A DNA stretch of 64,000 nt from Blepharisma japonicum (Eukaryota > Ciliophora > Heterotrichea > Heterotrichida > Blepharismidae), in the NCBI GenBank assembly GCA_949751835.1, contig CATKHK010000015.1:62001-126000 (forward strand). Reading direction: 5' to 3'. Below the pieces are notes generated by a model. That model saw only the letters and a list, made by a program, of their open reading frames with translations, had not been told where the DNA came from and searched no databases. Shown piece by piece: positions 7,728-54,762 of this stretch. The translations under genes were made by a program, and so were the position numbers. Position 1 is the first letter of the stretch, and every line of letters begins with the position of its first letter.

Positions 7728-9221
7728 TTATCGATTTAGAAAAAATAAATCAGTAAGGGTTTCTTCATGAATTTCAAACCTTTCTTTAAGTTCATCAATG
7801 ACCTGTTTACAAAGAATAAACTGGCTCTCACCTTTGTCTAACCTATAAAACTGTGGAAGATATAAAATATCCCTGAATTTTATGATATCTTGGGTATCAC
7901 TATTACTTTCAAAGCTTTTAAAATTTAAGACATTCATTAGTCTTTCTGTAAACTCCAAAGAATAGTATATATATTGTGGCTTTGGGATGGCTCTTCTAAG
8001 GCGAAGCTCGTGCTCAACACCTGCTCTTAAAGTCTGCTCAGTTAAATTAGTTAAATTCTTTATATGCCGAATGAAAAGTTCTACCTGTAACTCATAAGTT
8101 CCGATAAAAACTCCTCTGAGCATGCCAATAATGCCGAATCCATAAAGATCAGGGTGAATTGTATTTAAAAAGCTCACGACTGGGAGAACATTATCATGGC
8201 CATCATAATTGAGGATTTCCAATATTTTCTCGTCGCAAAATGACAAATCAGCTTCATAACCTGTGCATCAAATGACTGCATCAGCTTCCAACTCATTTCC
8301 ACTCTCTAGAATTAAGCTATTTTCTGTCAAATTAGTTGGCTTTCCTTTGATAATTTGGATTTTGCCATCTTCCAAACATTTTTTATAGTTTATGCTGACT
8401 ATAGAAAAAGAATTTGACTGCTCTCATTCTGGTAAAATAACTAAATCTGGATGTCCTGGATTCGCAGCCAGTCGGCAGAATCCTTTCTTCATTTCTGGCC
8501 CAATTTCTAAATTTTTAGAAATTATCCAATTATGAAGTGATTTTGTTTTACTAAAAAAATCAATAGGTATGCCATGGTAATATTTAGGCAGCAAATAATG
8601 AGGTTTTCTAATGACTTGTATGACCTCGCTTGCATAATTCACTAAATCTCCTGCTATATCGCAAGAACTTGTAGAAGCGCCAACTATAATAACTTTTTGC
8701 CCAATAAAGTCCTTAGGATCTCTATATTTCCCACTGTGTAAATTTTTCAGTTTCGATTGACAAGAATTATCAACAGGGATAATTTCTTTAGTATGAAATC
8801 CATTTGCTACGATAACGTAGGGAAATACTTTTTCGAAAATTTCTCCAGATAAAGTGTGCTGTCACCTTACAAAGTAACCTTCTTGAGTTTTGTTGACATA
8901 AATCGCTTTGCAGTTAAAGTGAAAATTATCAAATAGCGAATGATGCCTAATATAAGATAAAAAATAGTCCATAACTTCTCTATTGGGTGGTGTTGGATCA
9001 GTAGACGATGGCCATGGCATATCAGAAAAGCATGTAAAATATTTGGACGTATTAGTCCTCAAATTATTCCACACCCCTATTTCTTCATCAGAATTTTTCC
9101 AAATACCTCCAAATCAATTGGATTTTTCAATCACAAAAGGCACAAGCCCATAATCTTTTGCAATTTTACAAGAAATTATTCCTGCAGCACCGCCACCTAT
9201 AATACAAATTTCTTCATCCAT
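7728..9221 (-). CDS. flavin-containing monooxygenase (FMO family)
   Basis: 497-residue FAD/NADPH-dependent monooxygenase. From the N-terminus: MDEEICIIGGGAAGI (FAD-binding GxGxxG), NWFGGIWKN (the conserved FGGxW block), VWNNLRTNTSKYFTCFSDMP (the FMO rtN...FSDfP segment), HSGKYRDP, then a second dinucleotide-binding loop VIIVGASTSSCDIAGDL and the C-terminal DAVIWCTGYE motif. Several of these Trp are TGA codons. All pieces lie in one reading frame with no intron; ATG at 9219-9221, TAA at 7728-7730. The family oxygenates soft nucleophiles (N- or S-containing compounds). The physiological substrate is unknown; plant YUCCA-like or yeast Fmo1-like roles cannot be separated here. Confidence 0.9.
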
Positions 9222-9376: not shown

Positions 9377-12300
9377 CTACTGCCCATAAACCGCTTGAAC
9401 TGATTGCACAGAGGTAATAATTGCCTGAAGCTTCTCATTCAACCTGCTTTCTTGGCCTTGCATTTGTCTCTCCAATGCCACAAGTCTTTTATCAAACTGC
9501 GCAAATCTATCATTTATTTGTTCAGTAACTTTAATTTTGATATACTCTGCTTTATCAGCCTGGATTCCACTCAAAAAGCTTTTGAGCTTCTCGAACTCGT
9601 CTTCAAGAGCTTTATTTTTTCCTTCCGTTTTATCTCGTTTGTTTTGCTTGAAATAGTCTAGCTTTTGCAAATAAGTTCTACTGCCTCTATTCCTAGCCCA
9701 AAACATCAGCGACTCAAATTCGATGACAACGTCAAGCATTTCTTTAGTGTCCATTGAAACTTGGCTTTGCTGAAAATCGTCGAAGGATTTACCAAGAATT
9801 GAAATGAGGAGATTCAGCATGAGGATAACGTTAAGGATTGAAGCCAAGGTAAAAGTTGAGTACTCTGCCCAGTCAAAACCATCATTTGCAAACCCTCCCA
9901 TATCTAGCTCAAAACTCGCCTTCCAAGCAGTTTCAATGTCAAAGTGGTTTGTTGCTGAAACATAAAGGACTGCAAATCCAAATGTAGAGTATAGCAAAAT
10001 CATTAGGAAAGTTACTGTATCAAAGGCAGCTCGGATGATCAGCCGGACGTAAAATCTTGTTTTATCAAATGTTCTGAAATAGACCAGCCCTCTTAAGAAA
10101 TTTGCGATTACAGTAAAAAATGAAAGCCCGTCATAAAAATTGCCAGTAGCGCCAATTATACTCCAAGTAAAGCTCAAGGCCAGTCTTATAATATCATGAT
10201 AGTTTATAGCACTCATGAAATATCCCCATCCTGACGAGTACATCTGGAAAACTTCATAAGACATCAATAATGCATTAATAATCCAATATGCAATAAAAAG
10301 CCCGATATCAGCTGTCCCATTAAGTGACAAAATCCAAGACAGGAACACAATATTCATTGCATATATAAAGGTTAAGAACAGGTTTAGGTAATAAAATGAG
10401 TCCCATTTGAGCCTGATAATTGATTTAATAAAAGGAGTCTCATAAATTTCAATTATAGGGCACTCTATAATAGCTTTTAAAAACTTAATACTTTCCCTCG
10501 AGCCGTTTTGGAAGTTTCAGCTTAAAGGACTCGTCCACATTTGTACCAAAAATTCTGTTTCATTAGTTTGCTCTTCTTGGCCGCATATAAAATCCTCAAT
10601 TCTTGGTAAAATTGTATGGGAAAATTTTGTGATAGGAAGTTCTCCTTTAGGAGCTGCGAATAAAATATAATCATCGTCATCTCTTTTTCGGAAAATTGCT
10701 TCAAGGAATGGAACTATTTGTGCAGAATGAGAATCCAAGACTTTTATGATATCGTCTCTTAGTGCATGCATAGATTGTTCTAAAGTATCATAATTTTTAC
10801 AAAAAATGATGCCATTTAATAAGAGGTCGAGACATCTTCTGGATTTTCGAGACATTGCATAGAAGAGAGGACTTCGGCCGAAATTGTCTCTGAATATAAA
10901 GGCACCCATTTCTTGTGCTTTTACTACATGCTCAACTAAATCGAAATAACAATAATAATGAAGAAGGCTGATTTTCATAGGTCCAATAACAGCAGATATC
11001 ATGCTGTCATCAGGTGGTTGCCTACTTGTAAGCTTCTTGATATAGATTTGGTTAAGAATCCCTGAATCATAGCCATAAACTCTGATCCCTGACATTCCGT
11101 TCATGCTAAACTGAGGTCTGATAATTACATCATCAATCTTCCATATCTTAATGCTTTGGTCTTTTGACGAAGTTGCAATAAATTCATCGTCACTTGAGAT
11201 TTTTAAGCAGTGAATTATAGACTCATGTGCCTTTAACAGTCTTTCTTGTCGTCTTTCATCAAAATTTCATATTCTAACAGTCCCATCATCAGAGCTGGAA
11301 ACAATATACTTATCATCATTAGTAATTTCTATACTGAGAACTCTTCTTTCATGCCCTCTGAGCACACATACCTGGATTCTCTCATAGAAATTCCAAATTC
11401 TTATGGTTTTATCATTAGAGCCTGATACAATGAATTGCTGGTTTCTTGTCAATTGTAGACACTTAATTTCGTTTTTATGGCCTTTGAGAGTGGAGACGAG
11501 CTCATAAGTGATGAGATTTCAGATTATGATATTGCAATCGTCTCCTCCTGAAATGGCGAATTCATTGTCTCGAGTTAATTGAAGGCAAAATACATGATCT
11601 TCGTGGCCTTTTAGAATGAAGATTTCTCTTTGGTTTTCGAGACTCCAAACCCGAAGAGTGTTGTCTCTAGAGGCGGTAACTATTTTTTGGCTATCTGTAG
11701 TTATTAGGAGGGCGTTTATGACATCTGTGTGGCCTGTTAGTACAGCTTCGTACTCCCAGTCAAGGAGATTTCAGATGTGGATTTTGTGCTCTACTGAAGC
11801 TGCTACAACTTGCAAATTGTCAAGAGTTATTTGCAGTATAATTATTTTGGCATGGATATTTTTCACTTTATCCACTGTTTTTAAGTCATCAAATTTTCAC
11901 ATTTGTAGCTTTTCATCTTTTGTAGCTGAAATCAAATAGCTGCTATCACTAGATAAAGCAAGAGCTGTAACTTCTGCCTCACATCCATTTAAGCTCGCCT
12001 CCCTTTTATTATTCAGTACATTTCATACTATTATTGAATTATCAGTCGACCCAGCTGACACCAAAAACTTATTATCTCTTGTAACAATCAAATGCTTGAC
12101 TTCTCCTGCATGCCCTCTCAATACCTTTTCTTTTCCCAGCTCTTCTGTGCTTCATATTCTGATTCTATGATCATATGACCCACATATAATAAACCTGTTA
12201 TTACAGCAGATTCTTATATACTTTATGTGCGCTTCATTTCCATCAAATTGGTAAACCTGCTTATTGTTTTCTGTTATGTCCCAAACCCTCATTGTGCAAT

Positions 12301-13252
12301 CATATGAAGCTGACACAATATACCTATTATCATTTGTTATGTCCACAGAGAGGACTTCACCATTATGCCCTTCATAGATCATTTTTTTTTCAGTCTCATT
12401 AATATAGAAGACTAGTAAAGTGTTGTCATTTGAGCCGGTAACGAACCATTCGCTATCTTTTGACACAGCTATGCATGTGATTTGAACAGCGTTTCCTTCT
12501 CTTTGGCTTGCTTTGCCAGTCTCAATATTGTAAATCTGTATCAAAATGTATTCAGAGACTGCAATAATGTATTTGCTGTCATCTGTGAGCTCGAAAAAGT
12601 TGATGACTCCAAACTCTGTTAGAGACTTATATTCAGCCCTCTCCTGGACATTTCATATCCTGCATGAAGTGTCTTCTGAGACAGAGACAATATATCTGCA
12701 GTCATTAGTAAAGGCTACCTTTGTAACTGCACCTATATGTCCTGTGAACTGAAAAGCTTGGCTTTTTTCAAAAATCCACAAGTGGACTATCCCATCAGCA
12801 GTTCCAGCCGTAATAAACTCATTATTAGAAGAAATATCAATAGAATTGACCGGAGAATGCAAATCCATGCTTGAAATCACTGTTTTGTTATAGAGGCTCC
12901 AATACTTTACAGTTCCATCATAGGAGCCAGAGACAAGGTAGTTATTATCACATGTCGCTTTTAAGCAGCTGACTTCTTCATTGTGTTTATCCAAAAGGAC
13001 GTCAAGCTCAACGCCCGTTCTAGCTCCAAAGGATTTTGTGCTTCGGCGGTGCTCTGAGCCTGTTTTTTCGAGCAAGGTCTGGACTTTGTTGGCTAGGTCT
13101 ATGACTTTGATATCGCCTGATTTGGTGCCAACATAGACAAAATTATCGTTGTTTGTGATACTCTTAAAGTCAAGATCAAAAATAGTAGGATTGAGAAATT
13201 GGTTGGCGGCACTGTCAATGTCGTCTATTGTTATAGAGATCGGAGATATCAT
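9377..13252 (-). CDS. giant WD40 - ankyrin - six-TM cation channel (TRP-like) fusion
   Basis: One uninterrupted frame of 1291 codons once TGA is Trp; many WD repeats end in RI-TGA, which is the WD 'W'. Residues about 25-700 hold some 15-16 WD40 repeats, enough for two beta-propellers. Residues about 715-780 contain ankyrin-like helices (SLLHYYCYFDLVEHVV, FGRSPLFYAMSRKS). Residues about 940-1165 carry six hydrophobic segments with a pore-helix-like stretch (WKASFELDMGGFANDG) before the last one, ending NLLISILGKSFDDFQ, which resembles the S6 end of TRP/ion-transport proteins. The C-terminus is coiled coil. Inference: a cation channel gated or scaffolded through its cytosolic propellers. ATG at 13250-13252, TAG at 9377-9379. 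Ion selectivity cannot be read from the sequence. Confidence 0.85.
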
Positions 13253-25931: not shown

Positions 25932-27554
25932 ATGGCTGATATGGATGAAAGACTTAAGGTCTTTCAAGGGATTTTTGCTGATAGAGTTGTAAAAACCCCT
26001 GAAGAAGTCCACAGCGTCGTAGCAACAGAATCTTGCTTAATCCTAGGCCTAAGATCTGGAAAAATCATGATCCGTGTTATAGAAGAAGATTTAGACGAGC
26101 TCATCGAAGCCCATTCCTCTGCAGTCAATATTTTAATTATTTCTGACGATAACAAATATATTATCTCTGGAGGCCAAGACAAAAAAGTCATCATATGAAA
26201 CCTCGAAACTTTTGACCAAGAAGCCAGTTTGCCAGCCCACAATGCTGTTGTTACCTCTTTATGCACGAAAAATGGCTTTTTATACACAGGCAGCGTCGAC
26301 GAATCAGTAAAAATCTGGGACTTGGAAACCAAAGAAATTGCAAATGAAATTAAATTTGAAAGCTCAGTCTGCTCAGTAAAGGCGACTGATGATTTTTTAA
26401 TAGTCGGCTGTGACGATGGAAGCATAAGGGTTCATAATATTGAAGGATTAGACGTTTCTTTTGTATTATGTGGGCATGAAGATGCAGTCTGAACTATTGA
26501 TGTATGGAATAATGTTATGGTAAGCGGAGGGTTTGACGGAAGAATCCTTATTTGTGACTTAAAAACACAGTCTCAAGAAGTCTTAGGCGAACACCAAGGA
26601 GTTGTGAATAAAGTAATGATTATTGATCCAAGTGGAGCCAATATCCCTATGATTATTTCAGGAGGGTCAGACAACCTGATAAAAATTTGGAGCTTGGAAG
26701 GGCTTAAAGATACGTTAGAGTACCACCAAAATTCAATTAGTTCAATATTTAATATTGACTATTATTTAATTACAGCTAGCTTTGACAAGACTGTAAGAAT
26801 GTGGAATTGGATGAATACAATGAAGACCAAAAAGGTTTTTACACACAATTACCCAATAGTTGGCTTAGCCACTGACTCAGAAGGGAATTTTTATTATACA
26901 AGTGAAGAGTCAATTGTAAGGCAAAAAGCTAATAATATGAAGGATAAAAAAGTTTTTAAGGATTTTGAAGGGAAAGTGACATGTGTTGCGCTTGATGAGT
27001 CCTCAGGTATTTTAGCTTGTGGAAGCCGTGATAGAATGGTAAGGCTTTTAAGTGTCCCTGAGCTAAATTTAGCAACTATGTTTGTAGATCATGAATCAAT
27101 AGTCACAGGTGTAAGTTTGTATCAAGGACTTTTGGTGTCTGCAGATAACTCGGGGAATATAATTCTTTGTGATTATGGCTCAGTACTGAACAGGCATTCA
27201 ATTGAAGTACCGATATCTAGTGTCCAAATAAATCAAGAGTATATTTCGTGTACCACTTCAAGTTCTCTATATTTATTTTCCCACTCTTTTACCCCAGTCA
27301 GCTCAGTTGAAATTGAAAAATCAGCATTAAGCCATTGTTTTACAGAGGATTCTGCATATATCATTCTTTCAACTGAAGACACTATACAAATACACAGTGT
27401 TCCAGCCTTAACAAAGGTAGCAGTTTTTCCTGTGCCTTATCAAGCAACTTCTTTGTCAATAATTCCTTCAATCCCTTGGATTTTCTGTGCATCAAATAAT
27501 CATATTTTGATGCTTCCACACTATATAAAAGAATGTGAGAATTTAATTAAATAA
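25932..27554 (+). CDS. WD40-repeat protein
   Basis: 540 residues, almost entirely WD40 repeats: roughly ten to twelve, probably two propellers. Clear blades include KYIISGGQDKKVIIW, GFLYTGSVDESVKIWDLE, VMVSGGFDGRILICDL, PMIISGGSDNLIKIWSLEG, YLITASFDKTVRMWNW and GILACGSRDRMVRLLSVP. In-frame TGA codons at 26196-26198 and 26490-26492 are Trp, the first being the WD tryptophan itself. ATG at 25932; TAA at 27552-27554. No additional domain is present, so it is a scaffold of unknown complex. Its blades resemble those of the large channel fusion at 9377-13252 only at the general WD level. Confidence 0.85.
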
Positions 27555-28910: not shown

Positions 28911-30632
28911 TTATTCATAAATATACCACTTGGAGTAATTTTCACCTTCAGAGACACACTGATGAGTTATGTCGATTTTTTTATCATCCACTTCAGTCCC
29001 AGAAGTTTTAAACGGAATGTACAAGCTAAATAGCCAACTACAGTCTTCTTGGTTAACCATAAAATCGGTGTATCCCCTTAATAAACAGATCAATGGATCG
29101 AACATAAAGAGACAAGTCCCATTTTCTTTCATGATTTTCATCATATCGATCCAGCTTTTTCTTTTCGCAGCATTTTGTTTGATTTGGAAAATTTCTTCAA
29201 ATTCTTCTAGAGACGCAGAATGTGAAGTAAATTCAAAATAATGCTCAAGCAAATATTCATTTTCGTCAACCATTTTAGGGATAATAGAGATTGACAGCTC
29301 AGAATCATTATCTGCTTTTTCAATCAAAAAATTGATCAAGGCATTTAAAATGCAGGAATAAAATGCTTTGTCTCCAAACGAGCTTTTTGGATAGTTGTCT
29401 GCCCGTGCTAGAGAAATTGATATTCTTTTTAGTGAAGCTTTTTGAAAGAGCATTTCAATAACATTGTGAGCTTCGATAAAAAAGTCAAGATAATCACTTT
29501 TAAATTCAATTTTTTTCAGACAATAGCTTTGAAATAAATGCAGACCTCTCATTTCATTTTTAAGCAAGTTAAATTCCGCCAAAAATTTTGAACTCAAAAA
29601 TTTTTCTTTTTCGAAACATTTTATTAATTTACTTAGCAGTTGTTCTGCTAAAGCTTGCAGCTCTTTATAGCTCTTTATAAGAAGAAATCTGTTAAGAAAT
29701 CATATAGAGACATCAATAAAAGTGATTCGTATTTTTTCTTGATCATATCATTTCACAATATCAGTTTTTATAATAAATCCAGAATTTTGAACATTTGTTG
29801 AATTAAAATCTGTAAGGTTTTTAAATATTGTGGATTCCTCATCTCTTGCCTCGCCTTCTGCTTTATATGCGTTCAAAATCAAGCTATTTGCTCAAGAGGA
29901 GCGATCATCATCAAAAATATCTTGAAATTTACCATATTTAAGCATATTTTCAGGCTTTCCATTCTGTTCAGCAATTGCCAAAGCCTTTTTATTATAATAA
30001 GAAATATCGCCTTCTTTATTTAATATATAAACTGCAGAGTGAGAGTTCTCTGTGATATTTTCAAACTCATCACATCTTTTTTTGGTGCAAGAGTATTGTA
30101 TCCAAATATTTCTGTAATCATTCTCAAAAATCATGCTAATAACTGTATAAAATATAGATGTAAAAATCATTCCTTTCAGATTTTGCCCTGTATAGATAAA
30201 AACAATAATTGCTTCAAAAATACTGTAAAATAAAGTGTACTTTCACTGTTTTATACAGAGGAATGTAAAGCAAAAACAAGGGAAAAGGGCACCAATATTT
30301 TCTAAGAGATTGCTTGTTTCGATGTTTCTTAGATGAAACTGGATGCAAGCGAATTCAGCTATTAAACGCTTGATATGAACATTGATATGTGTAAGTCCAA
30401 AAAAAGGAATCAGTGAAATAACAGAGATTGCTGCCCTTCCATCATAGAAGTCTCATAAACTAGCTGAAAGGATTGATAAGAAAATAAAGCACGCTCATGA
30501 ATATCTTTTATAAGTAATTAGGCAGCTTCTCGTGTCTTCTTGAAAGGTTTTCTCTGTTGAGGGGAGTAGAAACTCTAAAAGCATATTTTTGCTGAACCAA
30601 GCATCTTTCAATCCATCATCACACGTAAACAT
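28911..30632 (-). CDS. membrane protein with PAS and degenerate histidine-kinase-like region
   Basis: About 573 residues in one frame after TGA=Trp. The N-terminal 200 residues hold about six hydrophobic segments (YSWACFIFLSILSASLWDF, ISVISLIPFFGLTHI, FSIFEAIIVFIY and others). A PAS-like segment follows (HSAVYILNKEGDISYYNKKA...), then a helical linker. The C-terminal half has the layout of a HisKA/HATPase pair (DKAFYSCILNALINFLIEKA corresponds to the N-box region), but no phospho-acceptor His H-box or clear G boxes are seen, so catalysis is doubtful. The start is set at the ATG 30630-30632, just after an in-frame TAA. Likely a sensor-derived membrane protein; the ligand is unknown. Confidence 0.6.
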
Positions 30633-52620: not shown

Positions 52621-54762
52621 CTAGAATACCTCTTGCAGCTCTACATCATGTTTTTTAATGTCTCTATTTAGCAGCTTAAGAACTGCTTTGGCTCCTATAA
52701 GCAGCATCTGTTTCTTTATTTTCTGAGTGTCCAGTCCCATAACAGAATTTTTTCCTAAATTTCTCTCTCCGAAAATAGCTCCTTCCCTAAAATTATAGCT
52801 TCCTTTTTCCACTGCAACTGGATCTTTAATAGATTCTTTATTTTGTATATGCTCTACTCCTTGGATTAGCCGAGATTCCTTTTGTGCAATAGAGTCATCA
52901 ATTCTTCCTGAAATCTTATAAGTCTTTTTTTCTTCTTCATCTTCAGGGAATTTTTCATTATTTATTTTCAAGTTAAATATTTTGATATTTTTCTCTTGCT
53001 TATTTAATCTTGATTCAGAAACTTGTGGCTTGAGCTCAGGAAATTGGTGTTTCTGGGGAATGTTTTGTCCCTGATTTTCTGAGAGTGATTTTCTTATTTG
53101 TGGAAGTGGGGGACTTTCAAGCTCATTAGCCATTTTCATATTAGAACTCAGACTAGTTTGTTTTGTTTCTTCACACATTTGATTAATTCTGTTCATAATT
53201 TCTACTCTTTTTGCGGAATAAATAGGATCTTTCCGCAGTCTATTATGAATTTCTTCTTCAGAAAACCGTAAAATTTGATTCTCCAAAGCAGTCTCAATTT
53301 TTTGTCGAATTTCACATAAATATTCATAATTATAGTAATAAAAAGTTTCTATTGGAGATGCATATTTTTCATGAAAAGCTAAATGAGTTTGTCTTTGCAT
53401 TAATGGTCTAATTCTATTTGCAATGTTAGTTTTTTTTCTTTGAGCTTCTAAATTTATTATTTTTATACTTGGAAAATCAACTTGTGTTTCTATATTCTCT
53501 TTAAATGCTGCAATTTCTGAAGAGATTTCTTCTTTTATCTTCGTTTTTTGAATAGAAATCTCTTCAATAGTTTTATTAGCTTTTAAAGAAGAAGCATTTT
53601 CGTCTTCGGAAGCAGAATCATCTTCAAGATCCTGGGCATTTGAGCCAAATTTTAAAGGAGACTGCACATTTCTTTTATTGTTAGGGCTTGAATCATCTTT
53701 AAGATTTCTTGGACTTTTTGATTTTGCAGGAACTTTTATTATAATTGGCTGACTTTCTGGAGAAAAATCTATTTTTTGCTCCTCAATTTGCTCTTCTTGC
53801 AATATATTTTCTAAATCTATTTTTTTCTTATTAATAATTTCTTTATTTTCTTTCATTTCATTAATTTTCCTTTCATTTTCCTCAATTTTTTTCTTCTGCT
53901 CTTCAATTAAAATTTGTTTTTCAATGCATTCTCTGCTTATCTGCTCTTCTTGTGACATAAATAAGCTTCTTTGTTGCGATTCTTTTATTTTCATTGATCT
54001 CTGTATTTCTTGAAAACTATTCATTTCAGAAATTCTCGACTCATAAAGATCTTGCATTACTTTTATTCCTCTGAGATTTGCATCAGCTAGAGTTTGAAGC
54101 TGCTGGGACATAAATGAATTTAAAGTATTCATTATTGGGACTATGTTAAGTTGCTGATTTTGGATTAAATTCTTATTTTGGGAATTTTCTGGAGCATGCC
54201 TCCTAGCTTTATGCTTATCTAAGTAATCCTGCGAGACGAACCTTTTGGGGCAAAGCTCACATTTAGCTGCAGCTGCTTGGGTCATCTCCTTTCTCATCAT
54301 TATTGAAGTGAAAGGCTGCTTTAAAAGATGCTGATATGCAGTTATTGCATGCTTTTTCTTTTGTAGTTCAGCTTTTAAATTGTTTATTTCTTTTTCATTA
54401 GCAGTAAAAGATTCTTGTAAATACTGATTTTGCTCAGAATATGATTTATATTGAGACTCAGAAGAGCTTGCTTTTATACTGAGTTGATTTTGAGTATGCA
54501 AAAGATATTCCATTGCCAATTGTGATAGTCTAAAAACTTTAAGCAAACTTGAGTCTCCAATTTTTTCTAAATCTTCTCTATCTAAAGTTGCAAAAGTTAA
54601 ATTTTCAATAATGCTCTGCAAGCTATCAAGATTTCCAGCTTGAAACGCAGCGTCAATATCAAGAGTTTTTATTTTGTTTCAATTGATTTTCTCTAATCGT
54701 TTCTTCCATACAAAGTTTGAGCTATCTTCTGGATCAAGATTTGGTATCAAAGGCTTTGACAT
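52621..54762 (-). CDS. DZIP1/Iguana-like ciliary protein
   Basis: 713 residues, with TGA at 54676-54678 as Trp (EKIN-W-NKIKTLDID). The N-terminal 130 residues match the DZIP1 N-terminal domain: FVWKKRLEKINW, LDSLQSIIENLTFATLD, LLKVFRLSQLAMEYLLHTQ. A single C2H2 zinc finger follows (CELCPKRFVSQDYLDKHKAR...H), then long coiled coil and disordered segments. DZIP1 proteins sit at the basal body and transition zone and are needed for ciliogenesis and Hedgehog signalling in animals; in a ciliate a basal-body role is expected. Stop is TAG at 52621-52623. The start is the ATG at 54760-54762. Confidence 0.88.

Follow-up and report, generated by a model that had tools for sequence, protein, structure and literature searches.

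A Blepharisma gene family that appears to place a WD40 double propeller in front of a TRP-like channel region

A 64,000-nucleotide stretch of the Blepharisma japonicum genome (contig CATKHK010000015.1 of assembly GCA_949751835.1, positions 62,001 to 126,000 of the forward strand; hereafter the window, with positions counted from its first letter) raises the question of whether a TRP-type membrane region can be joined in one polypeptide to a run of WD40 repeats, and of what such a protein might do. Few sensory channels are as well known as the TRP channels, whose gating is set in part by their cytosolic regions. Our preferred reading, to which we give a probability of about 0.6, is that the window protein is a TRPV/TRPA-like cation channel of a large Blepharisma family, gated by a partner that its propellers bind. 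The parts of the gene, all on the minus strand, are as follows.

9377..13252, minus strand: whole gene, a single open reading frame of 1291 amino acids from ATG to TAG, with no need of an intron
11129..13195, minus strand: WD40 region, residues ~20-708, 16 WD-type units (Pfam WD40, repeat register, own-repeat profile)
10808..10984, minus strand: ankyrin-like repeats, about two, residues 757-815 (sub-threshold Ank_2, matches of clade profile A2)
10394..10432, minus strand: putative pre-S1 helix with the K949-W950 motif (member counts, PDB alignment)
9779..10390, minus strand: predicted S1-S6 transmembrane region, residues 955-1158 (hydropathy, profile match to TRPV, TRPA1 and TRPM8 chains)
9878..9925, minus strand: pore-like loop, with FELDMGGF at residues 1114-1121 (alignment, member counts)
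9656..9823, minus strand: end of S6 (LNLLISILG) and TRP-helix-like stretch, residues 1144-1199 (alignment past S6, identity with paralogue L010)
9404..9616, minus strand: C-terminal helical tail, probable coiled coil, residues 1213-1283 (family heptad test)

The frame of 1291 codons lies where the first-pass annotation of this DNA had placed it, and it is uninterrupted when TGA is read as Trp. There are eight TGA codons in the gene, each read as Trp, and seven of the eight encode the Trp of a WD signature (residues 200, 367, 410, 452, 494, 578 and 662). Because these seven fall on signature Trp positions, the gene itself supports this code. For Blepharisma stoltei, both TGA as Trp and the telomere unit CCCTAACA are on record (PMC9942806). 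In the genome studied here, three consecutive copies of that unit have 168 exact, overlapping matches and the reversed control has 0. Code and telomere repeat thus agree with Blepharisma, and the DNA is most likely macronuclear. The start of the protein (MISP..TIDDID..AAN) is common to the window gene and its paralogue L010. It could still be argued that two neighbouring genes, one for a WD40 protein and one for a channel, have been read as one through a sequencing error, a read-through or a missed intron. The length of the frame speaks against this: with TAA and TAG as stops and the base composition of the window, the chance of 1291 open codons is ~2e-32.

The rest of the genome bears on the same point. 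A search with the full protein returns 106 rows from 36 scored candidates, which we read as 36 genes including the window's; all 36 read as single frames with TGA as Trp, and seven (L012, L013, L014, L017, L018, L019 and L024) extend past the end of the extracted sequence. A search of the 45.2 Mb assembly with the channel half (76 of 88 candidates scored) gives 78 rows, some of them partial, at contig ends or short, and these merge to ~75 loci, with two rows made one at each of C64, C66 and C115:12796-14342. The loci followed further do not include three rows with an internal TAA or TAG (C84, C31:331795 and C115:12796) or L060 (178 nt, at a contig end). We examined the sequence upstream of the channel in 44 of the ~75 loci, namely the 36 full-protein genes (window gene included), 3 further loci and 5 slices, and find propeller-like sequence in the same open frame in all 44. 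The match is clear in 40 of them (whole-sequence E <1e-4) and weak in four (L018 0.02, L053 0.049, L054 0.0042, L057 6e-4), where the E-values are to be taken as lenient, coming from a set of 45 sequences and from a repeat profile built on the window gene, itself one of the 44. L053 and L054 also align by BLAST with the WD40 region of the window protein, and in L059 the repeat match sits in the frame leading into the channel.

The junction itself can be followed between paralogues. L010 is 57% identical to the window protein over residues 1-1278, and across the junction at residues 709-757 the codons pair up, 49 of them in L010 and 48 in L011. Since paralogues carry the same join and the junction codons pair up, two genes misread as one is very unlikely, close to negligible. 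Judged from the gene sequences, the joining of propeller module to channel is genuine, and the proposal of one polypeptide with WD40, ankyrin-like and TRP-type parts is borne out by a join that recurs in every locus examined. The first-pass annotation had also called for a search for the WD40-plus-channel architecture; in the organism's own genome it recurs many times. A maximum-likelihood tree of 39 channel regions, rooted for drawing only, consists of a clade of 12, which holds the window gene, L010 and L011 together, and a clade of 27. Several family members also lie near each other, for example on contigs C2, C5, C75, C81, C129, C156 and C209.

Now we consider the propeller half. The repeat register gives 16 WD-type units with a period of ~42 amino acids, unit 1 being set apart from unit 2 by an insert; a profile built from 11 of the protein's own repeats recovers 15 units, and Pfam WD40 finds 13 passing stretches (E 1.3e-105), so that the original count of about 16 repeats stands. 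With repeats of ~42 amino acids, the WD signature, and at least one seven-blade propeller's worth of units, this part is a WD40 repeat protein by its sequence, and we take the repeat number to suffice for two propellers, each with seven or eight blades. A hydrophobic peak of 1.4 at residues 470-488, inside the WD40 region, is taken as a strand and not as membrane. As a separate matter, recent copying of repeats within the gene was considered and rejected: the 15 WD units average 21% amino-acid identity, with a maximum of 45%.

Structure prediction for residues 1-725 from the single sequence reaches a pLDDT of 54.1 (the other four models 25-34), and in this low-confidence model the propeller part is predicted to be all beta. 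Foldseek searches with this weak model give low TM-scores that single out no one relative. Among the look-alikes are chains of the ciliary doublet microtubule, including CFAP52 (8snb_4A), which also matches the window protein by sequence (E 3.9e-38). WD40 propellers are usually binding platforms. Both the look-alikes and this general habit favour an alternative in which the TRP-like cation channel is real and the propellers serve only as an address or anchor, for example at the axoneme, basal body or cortex, with no role in gating. However, the ciliary chains share the list with Tbl3 and Pwp2 (both of ribosome biogenesis), Apaf-1 and the repetitive propeller 2ymu, which are placed among them or higher. 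The list of look-alikes therefore says 'long WD40 protein' rather than 'ciliary', and nothing specific to cilia was found. We regard propellers that only anchor as doubtful, though not far-fetched, and continue with the reading in which a propeller-bound partner gates the channel.

Whether there is a channel to be gated depends on the membrane half. Hydropathy shows S1, S2, S5 and S6 clearly (peaks 1.6-2.3), with S3 and S4 weaker (~1.16); the six hydrophobic segments and pore-like loop proposed earlier are present, two of the segments being weak. Hydropathy and alignment would both fit S1-S6 with a re-entrant pore loop between S5 and S6; the single-sequence structure model of this half (residues 704-1291, pLDDT 38.9) is unusable. 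For the window protein alone, we find no Pfam channel match (Ion_trans or PKD_channel) at E up to 1.

Kinship appears when the family is compared as a whole. We built a profile, A1, from 35 family channel regions, omitting L045 for its short channel and dropping L032-L038 as shorter copies of L039-L045, and compared it with all PDB sequences. The best 60 of its 247 matches consist of TRP channels throughout (types V, A and M), headed by TRPA1 (7ykr, 1.6e-13) and Inactive (9nvn, 2.5e-13) and followed, within those 60, by TRPV3, V2, V6, M8 and V1. Membrane-helix composition lends these TRP matches a bias, put at 11-21 bits over the main membrane stretch in three of the A1 alignments; HMMER removes it only partly, and this counts against our preferred reading. 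The TRPA1 score adds up pieces of both kinds, ankyrin and membrane, and the alignment with Inactive is one stretch from before pre-S1 to beyond the TRP helix. With both Inactive and TRPV3 the alignment continues unbroken past S6, which by sequence indicates a TRP helix after S6. A narrower profile, A2, made of 11 rows from the window gene's clade only, ranks TRPV3 and TRPV6 first among PDB chains, weakly (E 3.3e-4 to 4e-4); from rank 10 (0.0012) downward the list holds ankyrin proteins.

The pre-S1 motif, which aligns with KWKK of TRPV3 and KWNS of TRPA1, is kept across A1 (K in 35/35, W in 33/35), and KW, R1066 and the S6 NLL motif are all invariant or nearly so, the N, L and L of S6 being kept in 33, 34 and 32 of the 35 members. 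The pore-loop Gly (G1119 in the window protein) is kept in 29/35. The residue after it is D in 12, N in 11 and G in 5 of the 35; the window protein has Gly1120 at this filter position, where 23/35 have Asp or Asn, and this counts against our preferred reading.

Could the membrane part instead belong to a different kind of six-helix protein, either a channel of the polycystin type or a transporter of unrelated origin? Three of the 35 A1 members match PKD_channel at E up to 1 (best 2.6e-6), and the lack of a Pfam channel match for the window protein alone leans the same way; Ion_trans, at the same limit, is found in 26/35 (best 5.6e-12). Against such an origin stand the uniformly TRP composition of the best 60 PDB matches and the order in which the pre-S1 KW, pore and TRP-helix features follow one another, which matches that of TRP channels, and we consider it highly improbable. 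By these profiles the family is homologous to the TRP superfamily, and so, through its membership, is the window protein; we conclude from them that the channel half is a TRP relative of the V/A kind. What survives of the original label 'TRP-like channel' is this homology of the membrane part, seen through profiles; for the protein on its own the label has no Pfam channel match behind it. Searches outside the eukaryotes gave no confirmed relatives: 147 stretches in a collection of viral contigs fit the pattern against A1 and 20 stretches in bacterial and archaeal genomes fit that of the single protein, none being confirmed in these non-eukaryotic collections.

An N-terminal array of six or more ankyrin repeats is a mark of both TRPV and TRPA, and we sought such an array in the window protein by sequence. 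Only about two repeats are recognisable, and upstream of them the WD40 region occupies the place of a longer ankyrin array. In the window protein alone Ank_2 stays below threshold (E 0.0029; 18.6 bits, cut-off 27.3); profile A2 matches ankyrin chains at residues 757-815 (ASB8 E 0.0012, HACE1 0.011), which makes the earlier wording 'ankyrin-like' a fair one. Because the long array was not found, we file the protein as neither TRPV nor TRPA. We rate it instead, from these comparisons, as a putative TRPV/TRPA-like channel whose ankyrin part is shortened and preceded by a WD40 double propeller.

Comparison of the window gene with its two paralogues shows which parts have changed most. Within the WD40 region, identity with L010 is 46% in the first half, residues 91-420, and 62% in the second, 421-708; it is 73% over S1-S6 and reaches 79% in the TRP-helix stretch (residues 1166-1199), so that conservation between the two genes is highest in S1-S6 and the TRP helix; the corresponding values with L011 are 38%, 52% and 57% for the first three regions. 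Over eight regions, compared with L010 or L011, dN is 0.14-0.65 and dS runs from 1.07 to saturated. At the junction, residues 709-757, constraint shows plainly in the comparison with L010 (dN 0.46, dS saturated); it is weak in that with L011 (dN 0.63, dS 1.07), a point against our preferred reading. These two pairwise comparisons show, at the codon level, a protein sequence under constraint, and the faster divergence of the propellers in the same two comparisons fits an input domain that varies over an output that stays constant.

The membrane region is not intact in every member of the family. L045, which belongs to the window gene's clade, lacks S5, pore and S6 in frame, and the matches on either side of the gap are only 18 nt apart:

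L045:1330-2460 (genome G000, contig C66, ~220907-222256), minus strand: pore-less stretch in which S4 leads straight to the TRP-helix stretch

L045 keeps its WD40 repeats, ankyrin-like part, S1-S4, TRP-helix-like stretch and tail, and it may be a poreless channel relative, a case of somatic excision, or an assembly slip. In another member, L051 (2919-4358, plus strand), the alignment has the S6 NLL motif replaced and the pore Gly kept. Given that L045 lacks S5-pore-S6, some family members may serve without a pore. Both genes lend weight to an alternative in which the family is TRP-derived and some members, perhaps the window's, are non-conducting, acting as scaffolds of membrane-anchored propellers or, in mixed tetramers, as dominant partners. 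For the window protein, this has to be set against the high identity of S1-S6 and the TRP helix with L010, where conservation is greatest, and the near-universal S6 motif of the A1 members. We hold a non-conducting role to be improbable, and keep a conducting, propeller-gated channel as the preferred reading.

The C-terminal tail had been described as a coiled coil. A sliding heptad test over 39 family members gives 22 with p<0.05, the control segment giving 0/39; the 39 are kin and so do not amount to 39 independent tests. The tail of the window protein alone is not significant (p 0.08), and a fixed-segment test on it is negative (698 and 300 of 2000 shuffles); among paralogue tails, the fixed-segment test is positive for L010 (49 of 2000) and negative for L012 (395) and L045 (594). 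The description therefore holds as a family-level signal and not as a property demonstrable in the window protein by itself, whose polar helical tail is, on that family signal, probably a coiled coil.

How might such a protein work? In the mechanism that we favour, the cytosolic N-terminus would carry two beta-propellers in tandem and, after them, about two ankyrin-like repeats, where TRPV and TRPA usually have a long ankyrin domain, and four subunits would surround a common cation pore, with the C-terminal coiled coil helping assembly. The propellers would hang in the cytosol and bind a partner, which may be the cytoskeleton or some signalling molecule, protein or peptide. Any change in this partner, or a pull on it, would travel by way of the ankyrin-like linker, reach the pre-S1 and TRP helices and open the S6 gate, and the resulting current would be depolarising and possibly carried by Ca2+. 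The first-pass annotation had imagined a coupling of excitability to a ciliary or cytosolic scaffold in mechano- or photo-response; links of this channel to cilia, light or touch are conjecture.

It is useful to set the protein beside known systems. With TRPV channels, including Inactive (9nvn), which we take to be a fly TRPV, it shares a profile match from the pre-S1 KW through S1-S6 and the pore loop to the TRP helix, and ankyrin-like repeats ahead of the membrane part. TRPV has six ankyrin repeats. In contrast to TRPV, the window protein has WD40 repeats for what would be two propellers, about two ankyrin-like repeats, a probable C-terminal coiled coil, and only remote identity. TRPA1 is the best single PDB match among those listed (7ykr, owed partly to ankyrin repeats) and shares the pre-S1 KW; it has a long ankyrin array and a C-terminal coiled coil and, to our knowledge, no WD40 propeller. 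The double-propeller WD40 proteins Apaf-1, Pwp2, Tbl3, CFAP52 and 2ymu resemble it in their long runs of WD40 repeats, with no specific kinship to any one of them found; they are soluble and not known to carry a channel.

A TRP channel outside the animal clades, ADF1/TRP15, and a WD40 protein, ADF3/FAP16, are both deflagellation genes of Chlamydomonas (PMC5068960). There the two are separate proteins, whereas in Blepharisma the two kinds of sequence lie in one polypeptide. A combined WD40-propeller and TRP architecture was not found among literature titles and abstract openings, a body of text that covers few subscription papers; unreviewed database entries for WD40-TRP proteins may well exist.

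If the reading is right, a large natural WD40-TRP family would mean that an input module of an entirely different kind can work on the TRP gate, and the family would supply candidates for the genes by which heterotrichs respond to light and touch and in mating. A broader picture, which we put forward tentatively and think rather unlikely as a whole, is that Blepharisma, and perhaps other heterotrichs, has formed a sensory receptor superfamily of ~75 loci in which a fast-diverging double propeller controls a TRP channel; the ligand, cytosolic or ciliary, would differ from member to member, and poreless members of the L045 type would modulate mixed tetramers.

Several other genes were seen along the way. 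Next downstream of the channel gene in the window, at 7731-9221 on the minus strand, is an FMO-like flavin-binding monooxygenase (E 2.2e-40). A second WD40 protein, of 540 amino acids, lies at 25932-27551 on the plus strand (Pfam WD40 E 2e-34), and a protein of 573 amino acids at 28914-30632 on the minus strand has a weak PAS-fold match (E 1.4e-4; 22.3 bits, cut-off 22.6), making it a possible sensor. The minus strand at 52624-54762 encodes a protein like DZIP1/Iguana, a ciliary basal-body family (E 4.2e-26). Elsewhere in the genome (G000), Ion_trans matches run densely on contigs C16 (129-146 kb), C71 (204-226 kb) and C95 (119-124 kb), with at least 12, at least 13 and at least 4 rows respectively among those listed, nearly all of them strong and many in long frames; our guess is that these are arrays of multi-domain voltage-gated channel genes.
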